In this document: positions 52,844 to 59,662 of the stretch, piece after piece
Layout: each line of letters opens with the position of its first letter
Numbering within the stretch: the first letter of the stretch is position 1
Source of the DNA: Acidimicrobiales bacterium
GTDB taxonomy: Bacteria; Actinomycetota; Acidimicrobiia; Acidimicrobiales; SZUA-35
Assembly: GCA_020629695.1 (NCBI GenBank)
Contig: JAHDCV010000006.1
Span: 1-64,000, forward strand
DNA length: 64,000 nucleotides
Direction of reading: 5' to 3'
The notes under the pieces: model-generated
The model's database searches: none
Seen by the model: only the letters and a program-made list of their open reading frames with translations
What the model was told of the DNA's origin: nothing
Program-made: the position numbers and the translations under genes

Positions 52844-54583
52844 TCATCTGAGGGTGTCGCCCTCGATCACCCGCTCCAGGCGCGGTCCGGCGATCCGGAG
52901 ATCCTCCCGCCGCCGGGTCGCACCGTTCCGGTCCAGGATCCCGATCAGCGGCAGAGCGAACTTGCGCGTCGTGCCCAATGCGTCGCGGATCTGGGCCATG
53001 GTGAGGCCTTCCGGAGCGGTGGCGAGCTCGTCCCGAACGGTCGCTGCGGCGCGCCGCACCGCCCCGGCGGAGAACATCACCCCCTCGTGCTCGATGACGT
53101 GGCCCCGGCGGATCAGTTCCCGCACGGCGGCCCGGTCGACATCGTCGGGTGGCGGTGGCTGGAACGGGTCGGCGTCGAGATCGGCGAGCCAGGGCAGATC
53201 GGCGAAGGGATCCGGCGGCTCACCGAGGACGACCCGTGTGCCCGACACCTGGGCTTCTTCGATCAGCTCGAGCATCGCCCGGCCCCGATCGTCGAGCGAC
53301 GCCAGGTCGACGCCTTCGGCGCCGGCGTCGTCGAGGGCGAGTCGGAGTGCACCCACCGCAGCCGTGAGCTCGGGCGGATGGACGACCCACCGGCCGACGT
53401 CGGGCTCGACCCGAACGCCGGAGATCCGCTCGAGATGCTCGATGTCCACCCAACCCCGCTCGGCCACGAGACGCTCGACCGACCGATCGGGTCGAGCCTT
53501 CGCTGCCGCGACCAGCGGCTCCACGTCGAGCACCTGTCCACCGCCCACGGTCTCGTCCCGGCCCTGTTCCCGCAAGACGAATCGGTCGCCGGGGATCAGC
53601 GGCATCGGACGATCGAGATGGAGTCGGATGAGCCCGGTGCCGCCGGGCGCGATGGCCTCGGGCCCGAGCACACGGAGACGGACGCTGAGCTCGGCCGAGC
53701 CGATGTAGATCGCGTACGCCCCGCGTCGGGAGACCCTGTGCCCGAGGGCATCCAGCACGCGCAGCTCGGCGTCGATGCGGTCGGTGTGGTGCCACTCGTC
53801 GCGTCGCACGATGGCGTGGCCGCGGCCGATGTCTCGATGGTTCACCCCGACCAGATTGATGGCCGCACGTTCACCCGGACCGATCCGCTCTCGTTGTTCG
53901 TGATGGCTCTGCAGCCCACGGATCCGGGCCCCGAGGTCGCCGGGCACGAGATCCACGTCGTCACCGACCGCCAGCCCGGCCCCGGTCGTCGTGCCGGTGA
54001 TCACCGTGCCGGCGCCGGCGGGGGAGAACGAGCGATCGACCCACACGCGGAGCCGACTCCCGGCCTCGGGCGGCGGGGTGTCGTCGATCAATCGATCGAG
54101 CGCGTCGGACAACGACGCCAGCCCCACCCGGTTCACGGCCGAGACCCCGATGATCGGAGCATCGGCGAGGAACGTGCCCTCGACGTGATCGGTCACGTCG
54201 AGCTCGGCGAGCTCGCGGAGTTCGTCATCGACGAGATCGACCTTGGTGAGGGCGATGACGCCCCGCTCGATCCCCAGCAGGTCGAGGATCCGCAGGTGTT
54301 CTTCGCTCTGGGGCTTCCAGCCTTCGGTGGCCGACACGACGAAGACGCAGCCGTCCACCGCCCCGACACCGGCGAGCATGTTGCGGATGAATCGGATGTG
54401 GCCGGGGACGTCGATGAAGGACAATCGGCGACCGGACGGCAGCGTGAGGCCGGCGAAGCCGAGATCGATGGTCAGCCCGCGGGCCTTCTCCTCCTCCAGG
54501 CGGTCCGGGTCGGTGCCCGTCAACGCCTGGACGAGGCTCGACTTCCCGTGATCGACGTGGCCTGCGGTGGCGACGACGGGCAT
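52844..54583 (-). CDS. selB: selenocysteine-specific elongation factor
   Basis: 579 aa. GTPase domain: VVATAGHVDHGKSSLVQALTG (G1), DRLEEEKARGLTIDLGFA (switch), SFIDVPGHIRFIRNMLAG (G3) and ALTKVDLV (G4). EF-Tu-like domains follow (SFSPAGAGTVITGTTTGAG). The C-terminal winged helices bind SECIS RNA (MAQIRDALGTTRKFALPLIGILDRNG). It overlaps selA by 1 base in a selA-selB operon. No selC was found in the window. Confidence 0.95.
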   Translation of the reverse strand: MPVVATAGHVDHGKSSLVQALTGTDPDRLEEEKARGLTIDLGFAGLTLPSGRRLSFIDVPGHIRFIRNMLAGVGAVDGCVFVVSATEGWKPQSEEHLRILDLLGIERGVIALTKVDLVDDELRELAELDVTDHVEGTFLADAPIIGVSAVNRVGLASLSDALDRLIDDTPPPEAGSRLRVWVDRSFSPAGAGTVITGTTTGAGLAVGDDVDLVPGDLGARIRGLQSHHEQRERIGPGERAAINLVGVNHRDIGRGHAIVRRDEWHHTDRIDAELRVLDALGHRVSRRGAYAIYIGSAELSVRLRVLGPEAIAPGGTGLIRLHLDRPMPLIPGDRFVLREQGRDETVGGGQVLDVEPLVAAAKARPDRSVERLVAERGWVDIEHLERISGVRVEPDVGRWVVHPPELTAAVGALRLALDDAGAEGVDLASLDDRGRAMLELIEEAQVSGTRVVLGEPPDPFADLPWLADLDADPFQPPPPDDVDRAAVRELIRRGHVIEHEGVMFSAGAVRRAAATVRDELATAPEGLTMAQIRDALGTTRKFALPLIGILDRNGATRRREDLRIAGPRLERVIEGDTLR

Positions 54584-55863
54584 CAGCGCGCCCGGGCCGT
54601 CCGGAGTGCGGCCACGACGAGCTCGTCGTCGTCGGGATGCACCGTGCGCAGATCGATGATCGTGTCGTCGCCCGACGCCCGAGCGATGACAGGATGGTCG
54701 GCCGCGCGCAGGGCCGCCCGGACGTCGCCCCGGATGAGCAGTCCGATCGACGGGATCTCGACGTCGGGCAGGGTTCCTCCACCCGGGGTCGCTGCGGTGT
54801 CGACGACGGCGATCGACCCACCGAGCTCGTCGACCATCGCTCCGGCTCGCCGAGCGAGCTCGTCGGTGCCGGTGGTCGCCATCCGCCAGAACGGCAGGTC
54901 GGTGCCACGACCGTCGAGGAGGGTCAGCAGTGTCTCGGTGAAGGCCGCGATGACGTGGACACCCGGCCGCAGGGCTCGAGCGAGGGGATGCCGGGCGCAC
55001 GCCTCGACGAGGTCCGCACGACCGGCGATGACCCCTGCCTGGGGCCCGCCGAGCAGCTTGTCGCCGGAGAAGATCACCAGGTCGGCACCTCGATCGAGCG
55101 TCTGGCGTGCGCCGGGTTCGTCCCGCAGCCAGTGCGGAGGCGGTCCGTCGAGCCAGGGACAACGCTCGTCGAGCAGTCCCGAGCCGAGGTCGACCACGAG
55201 GGGCACGCCCTGCCCGGCGAGATCGGCCGAGGGCACCGCTTCGGTGAAGCCCTCGATCCGGTAGTTCGACTGATGGATCTTCATGATCAGGGCGAGGTCG
55301 TCGTCGATCACGGCCCGGTAGTCGGCGAGGCGCGTGCGGTTGGTCGTGCCGACCTCGACGAGACGGGCCCCCGACTGCCGCATCACGTCCGGGATCCGGA
55401 ATCCACCGCCGATCTCGACGAGTTCGCCACGACTCACGGCGACGCCCCGATTCGCCGCCAGGGCAGCAAGGACGAGCAGGACGGCGCCGGCGCAGTTGTT
55501 GACGATCAACCCACGCTCGGCCCCGGTCGCCGCCCGGACGAGATCGGCGAGTCCGGCCTGCCGTGAGCCGCGCTCGCCCGTCTCGAGATCCAGCTCGAGA
55601 TTCGTGGCCGTCGGTGCGACCGAGGCGGCCAGGGGAGCGCGCCCGAGATTCGTGTGCAGCAGCACGCCGGTGCCGTTGACGACCGGTGTCAGCAGCCGGC
55701 GGCGCCGGGTGTGTGCGAGACCGGTGGCGATCGTGGCGGCGTCGCCGCCGCTCGATCGAGCCGTCTCGACGGCCGCTCGGGCGACCTCCACGAGCATCGG
55801 GGCCGGCAGGCCGGAGTCGGACAGGGACCGGGCCAACCGGTCGACGCTGGGCGGACGTTCCAC
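54583..55863 (-). CDS. selA: L-seryl-tRNA(Sec) selenium transferase
   Basis: 426 aa from GTG. PLP enzyme that converts Ser-tRNA(Sec) to Sec-tRNA(Sec) with selenophosphate. N-terminal VNGTGVLLHTNLGRAPL, NNCAGAVLLVLAALA, GGGFRIPDVMRQSGA, KIHQSNYRIEGFTEAV and the PLP-lysine segment IFSGDKLLGGPQAGVI near residue 265. A TAACCT box (complement 55870-55875) ends 6 bases before the GTG, so the selA-selB message is probably leaderless. Confidence 0.95.
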   Translation of the reverse strand: MERPPSVDRLARSLSDSGLPAPMLVEVARAAVETARSSGGDAATIATGLAHTRRRRLLTPVVNGTGVLLHTNLGRAPLAASVAPTATNLELDLETGERGSRQAGLADLVRAATGAERGLIVNNCAGAVLLVLAALAANRGVAVSRGELVEIGGGFRIPDVMRQSGARLVEVGTTNRTRLADYRAVIDDDLALIMKIHQSNYRIEGFTEAVPSADLAGQGVPLVVDLGSGLLDERCPWLDGPPPHWLRDEPGARQTLDRGADLVIFSGDKLLGGPQAGVIAGRADLVEACARHPLARALRPGVHVIAAFTETLLTLLDGRGTDLPFWRMATTGTDELARRAGAMVDELGGSIAVVDTAATPGGGTLPDVEIPSIGLLIRGDVRAALRAADHPVIARASGDDTIIDLRTVHPDDDELVVAALRTARAR

Positions 55864-57204: not shown

Positions 57205-57900
57205 TCAGCGCTGTGCTTCGTCGACCTCGCCGGCGACGGAGTTGTAGACCGCCGGCCAGAAGCGGTCCCGAGCGGACCAGATGCCGCCGATACCGAACTT
57301 CAGGATGAGGATGAGGCTCAGCGAGCTCACGATCGCCGTGAAGAGCGTGTCGACGATGTCCTGGGCGAAGCCGAGCTGGTCGAGGGCGGCGAAGCCACCG
57401 ATGACCCAGATCGCACCCACGATGATCTTCGAGAGCGTGCCGCCGAAGCTCAGGTCGGTCAGCATCGGCGAGACGATGTCCCGCACGGCGTTGGCGACGA
57501 GTCCGGTGATGATCACGATCGCGATGGCCACGATGGCCTTCGGGATGAAGTTCACCATGTCGCTGAGGGCATCCGAGATCGCGTTGTCGCCGAACGGCTG
57601 CAGCGCGAGCTGGAGGACCAGCAGCATGATGAGGTAGTAGACCAGCTTGGCGACGAAGCGGCCGCTGTCGGCGTAGCCGGCCCGCTCGAGCGGACCGCCG
57701 ATGCCGGCACGGTCGACCATGTCGTCGAACTTGATCATGCGGAGGCCTCGCTCGATCAGCTTCTTGACGAAGCCGGCCACGAGACGGCCGATGATCAGGA
57801 CCAGGATGAAGATGGCAAGTTTCGGCACGAAGGTGCCGATGGAGCTCAGGCCATCGGAGATGGCACCTCGCCAGTCAACGGATTCTTGGGCTAGCAGCAT
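57205..57900 (-). CDS. TM-helix-repeat membrane protein (CmpX-like, mechanosensitive-channel related)
   Basis: 231 aa. About five transmembrane helices: FVPKLAIFILVLIIGRLVAGF near residue 24, FVAKLVYYLIMLLVLQLAL near 82, FIPKAIVAIAIVIITGLVANAVRDIV near 118 and TLFTAIVSSLSLILILKFGIGGI near 190. The repeated P-K-A-I/L-hydrophobic-helix units are the conserved TM_helix (PF05552-like) repeats of MscS-related CmpX proteins, here without the cytoplasmic MscS beta domain. It is divergent from an ECF sigma operon. The purine-rich AAGAGGGAAACCAC upstream serves as ribosome site. Confidence 0.85.
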   Translation of the reverse strand: MLLAQESVDWRGAISDGLSSIGTFVPKLAIFILVLIIGRLVAGFVKKLIERGLRMIKFDDMVDRAGIGGPLERAGYADSGRFVAKLVYYLIMLLVLQLALQPFGDNAISDALSDMVNFIPKAIVAIAIVIITGLVANAVRDIVSPMLTDLSFGGTLSKIIVGAIWVIGGFAALDQLGFAQDIVDTLFTAIVSSLSLILILKFGIGGIWSARDRFWPAVYNSVAGEVDEAQR

Positions 57901-57973
57901 GTGGTTTCCCTCTTTCGGTACGGTTCGCCGAGGTACATGACGATCGCAGGACGCCTGGTGTCGCGAGATTCGA

Positions 57974-57987
57974 CGAAAATCTTTTCG
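57974..57987. promoter_or_regulatory. AT-rich inverted repeat between CmpX-like and ECF genes
   Basis: CGAAAA-TC-TTTTCG lies in the divergent promoter region, about 75 bases from the CmpX start and 50 bases from the proposed sigma start. It is conspicuously AT-rich in GC-rich DNA, so it may be an operator. Confidence 0.4.
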
Positions 57988-58035
57988 ATGCCCCCGAATC
58001 GCGACTTCTCGTCGCGCTGGGGCGTCTTCCGCACG

Positions 58036-58623
58036 ATGTTGTTGTCCGTCCACACGCTGATGCACTGGATCCGCTTCGCCGCGGATCCGCGCGCGGGTGT
58101 CGACGCTCCAGCCGTGGCTGAGCCGGATCCGCAACAGCTGCACGACCTCGTGGTCGAGCACGGTGACGCCGTGTTCCGCGTGGCGATGTCGGTCGTGCGT
58201 GACGCTGCCCTTGCCGAAGACGTCTCGCAAGAGGCGCTCATGAAGGCATGGCTCGCGCTTCCGACCTTCCGCGGTGACTCTGCACTGCGGAGCTGGTTGC
58301 TCCGTATCACCCACAATCACGCCATCTCGACCCTGCGGACCCGCCGAGCTGTCGTCACCGACCCCGACGAGATGCCCGAGCGCATCGAGCACGTGAACCG
58401 GTCGGTCGAGACACAGGTGGAGAGCCGCTTCGTACGAGAGGAATTCGAAGCCGCCCTCGGTGAGCTCGACGAGTTGTCGAGAACCATCGTGGTGCTGCGG
58501 GAGGTGGAAGGCATGGCGTACGACGAGATCGCTCGCACGCTCGACCTGGCGTTGCCGACGGTGAAGACCAGGCTGCTCCGGGCCCGCCGTCGCCTCGGCT
58601 TGTCTCTGCGGGAGTGGGCGTGA
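58036..58623 (+). CDS. ECF RNA polymerase sigma factor
   Basis: About 195 aa from the ATG at 58036; the open frame extends upstream to 57901 but has no domain content there, and a Met at 58060 is an alternative. Region 2: DLVVEHGDAVFRVAMSVVRDAALAEDVSQEALMKAW. Region 4: LDELSRTIVVLREVEGMAYDEIARTLDLALPTVKTRLLRARRRL. It is followed without a gap by a zinc-binding anti-sigma gene, the classic ECF arrangement, and flanked by two CmpX-like membrane genes. Confidence 0.92.
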   Translation: MLLSVHTLMHWIRFAADPRAGVDAPAVAEPDPQQLHDLVVEHGDAVFRVAMSVVRDAALAEDVSQEALMKAWLALPTFRGDSALRSWLLRITHNHAISTLRTRRAVVTDPDEMPERIEHVNRSVETQVESRFVREEFEAALGELDELSRTIVVLREVEGMAYDEIARTLDLALPTVKTRLLRARRRLGLSLREWA

Positions 58624-58943
58624 TGAGGCTCCGACGACATCCACCCAGGCGGCTGCTGCTCGAATGGCTCGACGGCGCCGACGGCTCCGATCGCCTGGAC
58701 CCGCACCTCGACACCTGCGAGGTGTGCGCCACGCGACTGATGGATCTCGAGTCGGTCGACGCCGGCCGCTCGATCAAGGCCGCACTGGATGAGGTGCTCG
58801 CGCCGCCGGAGGATCTCGCCCTGCGGTTGGAAGACGGGGTCAAGACGCGATTGGCTTCACGGGTGGTCTTCGGTGTTCTCGCCGATCTCTACGCCACCGG
58901 ATGGGAGACGTCCAAGATGTTGTTGATCGAAGGTGAAGAATGA
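58623..58943 (+). CDS. zinc-binding anti-sigma factor (ZAS type)
   Basis: 106 aa, overlapping the sigma stop (TGATG). HLDTCEVCATRL near residue 31 is the HxxxCxxC zinc-binding anti-sigma motif. No membrane helix is evident in the C-terminal half (LALRLEDGVKTRLASRVVFGVLADL), so it is probably soluble and may sense redox or bind a membrane partner. It overlaps the next membrane protein gene by 4 bases. Confidence 0.85.
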   Translation: MRLRRHPPRRLLLEWLDGADGSDRLDPHLDTCEVCATRLMDLESVDAGRSIKAALDEVLAPPEDLALRLEDGVKTRLASRVVFGVLADLYATGWETSKMLLIEGEE

Positions 58944-59662
58944 CCACGACCGATTGGCTCGTCGTCGCCGGCCTGATCGTCGGTTCGTTGCTGCTCGGGG
59001 CGATCGTGTCGCGCATCGTCTACCGGGTGTTGTCCGCCGAGGGCCGTCCGAGCACGGTGTCGAATGCCGCGTCGCCGATCTCGAGCACCGTGTTCTGGGG
59101 CTTCGTCGTGGCCGGCCTGCTCGGCGCACTCGGTGTCATCCAGCCCGACACGCTCGATCAGATGTCGGCCGACATCGTCGACTTCGTGCCCCGGGTGATC
59201 GCCGCGGCGGTCCTGGTGATCGCCGCCCGTGTCATCGCCGAGTTCGTCAAGTCGACGGTCGGGCCGACCATGGGTCGAATGCCGACGCACGTGCAGCGTC
59301 AGGTGCTGAACGCGATCGACGTCGTGATCCTCGGCGTCGGTGTGCTGCTCGCCGTGAACCAGCTCGGCATCGACACGACGATCGTCAACATCGCCGTGGC
59401 AGCGTTCCTGTTCAGCCTCGCGCTCAGCTTCGCTCTGCTCGTCGGGCTGGGCGGTCGCGGCGTGGCCGCCGAGGTCGCGGCCGGACGCGCGGTGAAACGC
59501 ATCGTGAAGATCGGTGACGAGATCGAAGCCGGAAACGTCAGTGGTGTGGTCACCGCGATGCATCCGACACTGGTCGAGCTGGCCGACACCGACGGACGGG
59601 TGGAGATGATCGCTCCGTCGACGCTGTTGAACGGCGGGCTCAGGATGCGCCGGGGCGACTGA
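58940..59662 (+). CDS. TM-helix-repeat membrane protein (CmpX/MscS-related)
   Basis: 240 aa, coupled to the anti-sigma gene (ATGA). Transmembrane helices lie near 7-28, 50-68, 82-105 (FVPRVIAAAVLVIAARVIAEFVKS) and 120-165. A short C-terminal beta part, IVKIGDEIEAGNVSGVVTAMHPTLVELADTDGRVEMIAPSTLL, looks like the start of an MscS beta domain. The helices are of the same TM_helix type as those of the divergent gene at 57205. A membrane-tension or envelope sensor feeding the sigma/anti-sigma pair is a reasonable inference. Confidence 0.85.
   Translation: MTTTDWLVVAGLIVGSLLLGAIVSRIVYRVLSAEGRPSTVSNAASPISSTVFWGFVVAGLLGALGVIQPDTLDQMSADIVDFVPRVIAAAVLVIAARVIAEFVKSTVGPTMGRMPTHVQRQVLNAIDVVILGVGVLLAVNQLGIDTTIVNIAVAAFLFSLALSFALLVGLGGRGVAAEVAAGRAVKRIVKIGDEIEAGNVSGVVTAMHPTLVELADTDGRVEMIAPSTLLNGGLRMRRGD

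Follow-up and report, generated by a model that had tools for sequence, protein, structure and literature searches.

In Pseudomonas aeruginosa, the ECF sigma factor SigX is encoded next to cfrX-cmpX, controls these genes, is required at low osmolarity and activates oprF, which belongs to the OmpA family (PMC3875570, PMC7641640). SigX responds to membrane alterations by a mechanism that remains to be determined, and how the state of the membrane activates sigma factors of this type is an unsolved question (PMC7641640). A locus of an Acidimicrobiales bacterium (Actinomycetota) invites comparison with this system. It lies in the window analyzed here (a stretch of 64,000 nucleotides, positions 1 to 64,000 of contig JAHDCV010000006.1), and it combines an ECF sigma factor gene with genes for a small zinc-motif protein and for two putative membrane proteins, termed P1 and P4.

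A first-pass annotation had described four open reading frames, three of them as a coupled operon of sigma factor, zinc anti-sigma factor and membrane protein, with the gene of a TM-helix protein transcribed divergently. This arrangement was confirmed. The sigma factor (195 aa; 58036 to 58623, plus strand) is followed on the same strand by the anti-sigma factor (106 aa; 58623 to 58943) and by P4 (240 aa; 58940 to 59662), and P1 (231 aa; 57205 to 57900) is encoded on the minus strand. The ATG of the anti-sigma gene overlaps the stop codon of the sigma gene (TGATG), and the ATG of P4 overlaps that of the anti-sigma gene (ATGA). By these overlaps, the sigma gene is translationally coupled to both downstream genes, in an operon that is conserved in relatives. 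As in ECF (group 4) sigma-70 factors, only regions 2 and 4 are present (PF04542 with 60 bits and PF08281 with 55 bits, both above the Pfam cut-off), and the nearest matches in the PDB were AlgU-type and RpoE/SigE-type ECF sigma factors. An Rfam search gave no match at the locus.

The protein encoded directly after the sigma factor had no match in Pfam or NCBIfam. It carries an HxxxCxxC zinc motif (HLDTCEVC in the window), which was present in 33 out of 33 close homologues from the window's family. Among PDB sequences, a profile of its homologues had its closest match in RsiW of Bacillus subtilis (E 4.6e-4), with an RsiW-like helix-4 region, and matched ChrR weakly (E 0.3). The zinc motif, which spans helices 2-3 in this class, and the homology to a proven anti-sigma domain, that of RsiW, place the protein among the class I zinc-binding (ZAS) anti-sigma factors; binding and inhibition of the sigma factor are predicted. 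RsiW is anchored in the membrane by a TM helix that follows the equivalent position, and it is cut by proteases. The window protein is without a TM segment and appears to be soluble; instead of an anchor, a conserved amphipathic C-terminal helix (DLYATGWETSKMLL) occupies the position of the TM helix of RsiW. Its pattern, DLFGAGxETxxLL, almost matches the zinc ligands in conservation (G93 in 32/33, E95 in 31/33 and T96 in 30/33 homologues).

In four cassettes from the wider class (L012, L014, L016 and L017), P4 and the small protein are retained, and the zinc motif is missing. Zinc cysteines are invariant within the window's family, though not essential throughout the related cassettes as would be expected of an RsrA-type factor. 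Since the zinc half was lost while the tail and P4 were kept, the tail rather than the zinc may carry the link to the membrane. We also noted that in the small anti-sigma-like proteins of these four loci and of L034 the C-terminal half is retained without the zinc motif, which provides a natural test of the importance of zinc. A fusion of anti-sigma factor and P4 was suspected from a long open frame in L014 and was rejected, as the small reading frame is separate there and zinc-less; no fusion protein was found among the cassettes examined.

P4 is a minimal MscS-like protein and a putative channel. It scored above the Pfam threshold for the conserved TM-helix family PF05552; its score for the MscS beta domain (PF00924), 18.8 bits, was slightly below the required 20.2. 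A profile built from 17 homologues matched solved MscS channels in the PDB (best E 1.4e-11, positions 83-235) over the pore helix and the beta domain. The AlphaFold2 model (pLDDT 83) displayed TM helices, a kinked pore helix (TM3a/b) and a small beta domain, and its best Foldseek matches were E. coli MscS (E 8e-7). P4 thus has the arrangement of the MscS superfamily and of E. coli MscS and YnaI, in which a beta domain comes after the pore helix TM3; in contrast to these channels, P4 stops after the beta domain and is without the canonical C-terminal alpha/beta cage.

P1 contains two PF05552 stretches (62 bits vs a cut-off of 22). No MscS beta domain was found in P1 by Pfam, and the succession of pore helix and beta domain is missing. 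Its AlphaFold2 model was entirely helical and gave no significant match in a fold search against the PDB, so that PF05552 is the one basis for calling P1 a channel. In Pfam, both membrane proteins thus match TM_helix/MscS profiles, as the proposal of the first-pass annotation required. When plasmid sequences were searched by tblastn, P4 had no match and P1 matched only distant solo TM-helix proteins (7 records).

Conservation of the gene order, the other premise of that annotation, was pronounced. P4 was present in 37 of the 39 genomes of the window's family, many of which are incomplete, and in 20/20 of the good ones. Thirty family loci were examined. Sigma factor, anti-sigma factor and P4 were consecutive in every one, and P1 adjoined this triad in at least 24, mostly in divergent orientation; in one genus, P1 lies upstream of the triad in the same direction. 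In one Acidimicrobiales MAG (L005), all four genes were found in the same order with 70-82% identity (P1, 82%). In the wider class, a sigma gene lay directly upstream of each of the best 22 P4 matches, and the two usually enclosed a gene for an HxxxCxxC protein of 90-130 aa. Of 29 loci fetched across the phylum, about 25 had a sigma gene approximately 0.4-0.6 kb upstream of the P4-like gene. The intervening gene was read at one phylum locus, L044; it encodes a 99-aa zinc-less protein and is followed by one CmpX-like protein, in which P1-like and P4-like features are joined. On these counts, chance is excluded as an explanation for the gene order. Judged from the same comparison, the module of sigma factor, small anti-sigma-like protein and MscS/CmpX-like protein is old and widespread in Actinomycetota, in looser forms, which argues against the earlier suggestion that the locus was independently assembled. 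No report of an actinobacterial ECF/anti-sigma/mechanosensitive operon was found in the literature, a search whose partial coverage makes it weak evidence of novelty.

The upstream regions of 33 relatives shared the motif CGCGAC-N17-CGTC. It was directed towards the sigma gene in 27/33 regions and lay on the opposite strand, towards P1, in 18/33; both copies were present in 17. First-order Markov shuffles yielded means of 0.07 (sense), 0.08 (antisense) and 0 (both). The window has both opposed copies, in the form TCGCGAC-N17-CGTC, at 57999 to 58026 (plus strand, in front of the sigma operon) and at 57939 to 57966 (minus strand, upstream of P1). Promoters of ECF sigma factors typically have such a two-element shape, with CGTC at the -10 position. 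Based on position and conservation, the motif is likely the promoter of the sigma factor encoded at the locus, and the two opposed copies would point to autoregulation together with joint control of P1. A role as a target gene suits P1 no less well than one as a sensor. Outside the family, the same motif was found only in L009, L010 and L015, which indicates that promoter specificity has drifted. We also noted a different bipartite motif, TAGAC-N17-CGTT, on the minus strand upstream of sigma genes in 11 of 24 phylum loci (L040-L063); it may be the own promoter of the phylum-level cassettes. Another observation concerns the start of the sigma gene. At 58023-58036 of the window and in the relatives L066-L089, the ATG follows the CGTC -10 element by only a few bases in many genomes, which suggests that the sigma mRNA is leaderless or that the start was set wrongly.

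A strict motif scan of 12 family genomes returned 64 sites, compared with 27 control sites. Genes just 3′ of the strict sites included those encoding aquaporins, MscL, OmpA-family proteins, P1 and a protein of 260 aa. Single targets were assessed with a weight matrix trained on the sigma and P1 sites alone; with this matrix, a site was present in 2 of 358 control windows and in 0/30 recA controls. AqpZ-type aquaporin genes had a site in 15/23 cases (9/14 outside the 12 discovery genomes), compared with 0/7 for the other aquaporin paralogue. The gene of the conserved 260-aa protein was preceded by a site in 24/30 genomes (17/20 outside the discovery genomes). For mscL, sites were detected in 4/30 (G000, G655, G658 and G687), with the window's genome among the four; a fifth match, in G667, was discounted as the site lies inside the coding start of an open reading frame. 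Of the closest OmpA-family orthologues, 6/8 carried a site, as did the OmpA-type genes of G000, G667, G656 and G661, with masked bases between site and domain in G000. DUF808 was rejected as a general member of the regulon (1/29 with a site). The predicted regulon is small; it includes the aquaporin, the 260-aa protein, OmpA-family proteins and, in some genomes, MscL. Aquaporin, MscL and OmpA-family targets together point to osmotic or envelope mechanics, and they lend independent support to the theme of osmotic stress and membrane tension that had been proposed from the locus.

Several features of the target regions deserve mention in their own right. The 260-aa protein, the most consistent predicted target, belongs to no Pfam family, begins with a membrane segment near its N terminus and occurs in 34 of 39 family genomes (e.g. 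L158:2126-2911, L162, L171 and L180). Between its gene and that of an 85-aa membrane protein, at L158:2001-2035 (G000 contig C95:43126-43160), two overlapping motif copies on opposite strands form an imperfect palindrome. In three genera (L165, L176 and L183), a charged, repetitive protein of 57-60 aa with a weak Rv1893-like match is encoded directly 3′ of the motif.

On balance, we lean towards reading the locus as a self-regulating envelope/osmotic stress switch in which P4, acting in trans, releases the sigma factor. The sigma factor would recognize TCGCGAC-N17-CGTC and drive its own operon and the divergent P1 gene from the two opposed promoters, and it would control the small regulon described above. 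The anti-sigma factor, without an anchor of its own, might dock through its C-terminal amphipathic helix on the membrane or on P4. P4 would serve as the membrane part in trans, such that a change in membrane tension or turgor would free the sigma factor, and freshly made anti-sigma factor and P4 would then reset the switch. For P1, an output or auxiliary role would be more likely than that of another sensor. Such a switch would probably help cells to cope with osmotic or membrane stress. The specific step of tension sensing by P4 is one that we infer more tentatively: a minimal MscS-type protein would be the membrane sensor, with tension holding or releasing an anchorless RsiW-like anti-sigma factor, so that tension would be converted directly into transcription, with channels for the release of water and ions among the genes switched on.

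P4 could also be an output channel rather than the sensor, with the signal arriving via ions, c-di-AMP or regulated proteolysis and the response still osmotic. We regard this as possible though somewhat unlikely. Other channels are found in the predicted regulon, and membership in the operon is no proof of sensing; however, those channels are scattered, whereas P4 is always encoded directly 3′ of the anti-sigma gene and often translationally coupled to it, and the anti-sigma factor is missing precisely the anchor that RsiW has. The nature of the signal may be questioned as well. The RsiW-like anti-sigma factor and the OmpA-family targets would also suit a switch that answers damage to the cell wall or the fluidity of the membrane, like SigW and in part SigX, rather than osmotic tension. 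Cold shock and valinomycin both elicit a response of SigX (PMC7641640). An aquaporin among the best conserved targets speaks against this alternative, as does the lack of any identified lipid-synthesis gene among the targets read from the strict motif in 12 genomes, and we consider it unlikely. Still more doubtful, in our estimation, is an anti-sigma factor that is itself a redox or zinc sensor of the RsrA/ChrR type, with P4 and P1 merely targets in an autoregulated operon. The invariance of HxxxCxxC in the family and the missing TM segment fit such a sensor, since soluble zinc anti-sigma factors are often redox sensors and are enriched for this function (PMC7406223). Yet the zinc of RsiW is structural (PMC7406223), and the motif is missing from the four class-level cassettes and from sampled phylum cassettes that retain the small protein and P4. 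The predicted targets, moreover, are channels for water and ions together with proteins of the envelope, and no thiol or oxidative genes were noticed at the strict sites of the 12 genomes.

The self-regulating switch that we favor shares features with several known systems. SigR/RsrA and RpoE/ChrR, which sense thiol or singlet-oxygen stress, likewise have a small soluble HxxxCxxC anti-sigma factor directly after the ECF sigma factor; they differ from the window locus in that here the zinc motif was lost from some related cassettes and the predicted regulon is osmotic or envelope-related. SigW/RsiW of B. subtilis also pairs an ECF sigma factor with a class I zinc anti-sigma factor, whereas at the window locus the membrane part is a separate MscS-like protein encoded next to an anti-sigma factor that has no TM segment. 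The closest parallel is the Pseudomonas SigX/CfrX/CmpX system, where an ECF sigma gene also adjoins those of a small protein and of a TM-helix protein of the MscS type, and where the theme is again osmotic or membrane stress. SigX controls the channel gene and an OmpA-family target; at the window locus, such control is predicted from the motif in front of P1 and of OmpA-family genes. Judged by gene content and published descriptions, the module would work like this system, to which it is likened without being filed as a member. Differences include the gene order, since in Pseudomonas a cmaX-cfrX-cmpX operon precedes sigX, the presence of a second TM-helix protein where Pseudomonas has one, and predicted aquaporin and MscL targets instead of fatty-acid genes.

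A further difference is the recognizable RsiW-like zinc anti-sigma factor within one coupled operon. The first-pass annotation had gone further and considered a soluble anti-sigma factor to be absent from the SigX system. Its presence here is borne out by the prediction, but its absence there is doubtful: SigX was called an orphan sigma factor (PMC3875570), whereas CfrX, an 84-aa protein encoded in the cmpX unit, has been proposed as its regulator (PMC7641640). The window locus represents a conserved version in compact form. Its anti-sigma factor can be identified, its MscS-like partner is defined, the promoter motif is sharp and the osmotic targets are few, and the idea of tension-to-transcription signaling is therefore testable by ordinary genetics and biochemistry.

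Elsewhere in the window, on the minus strand at 52844-55863, adjacent SelB-like and SelA-like genes were identified by eye from the translations only; this genome may therefore make selenocysteine.
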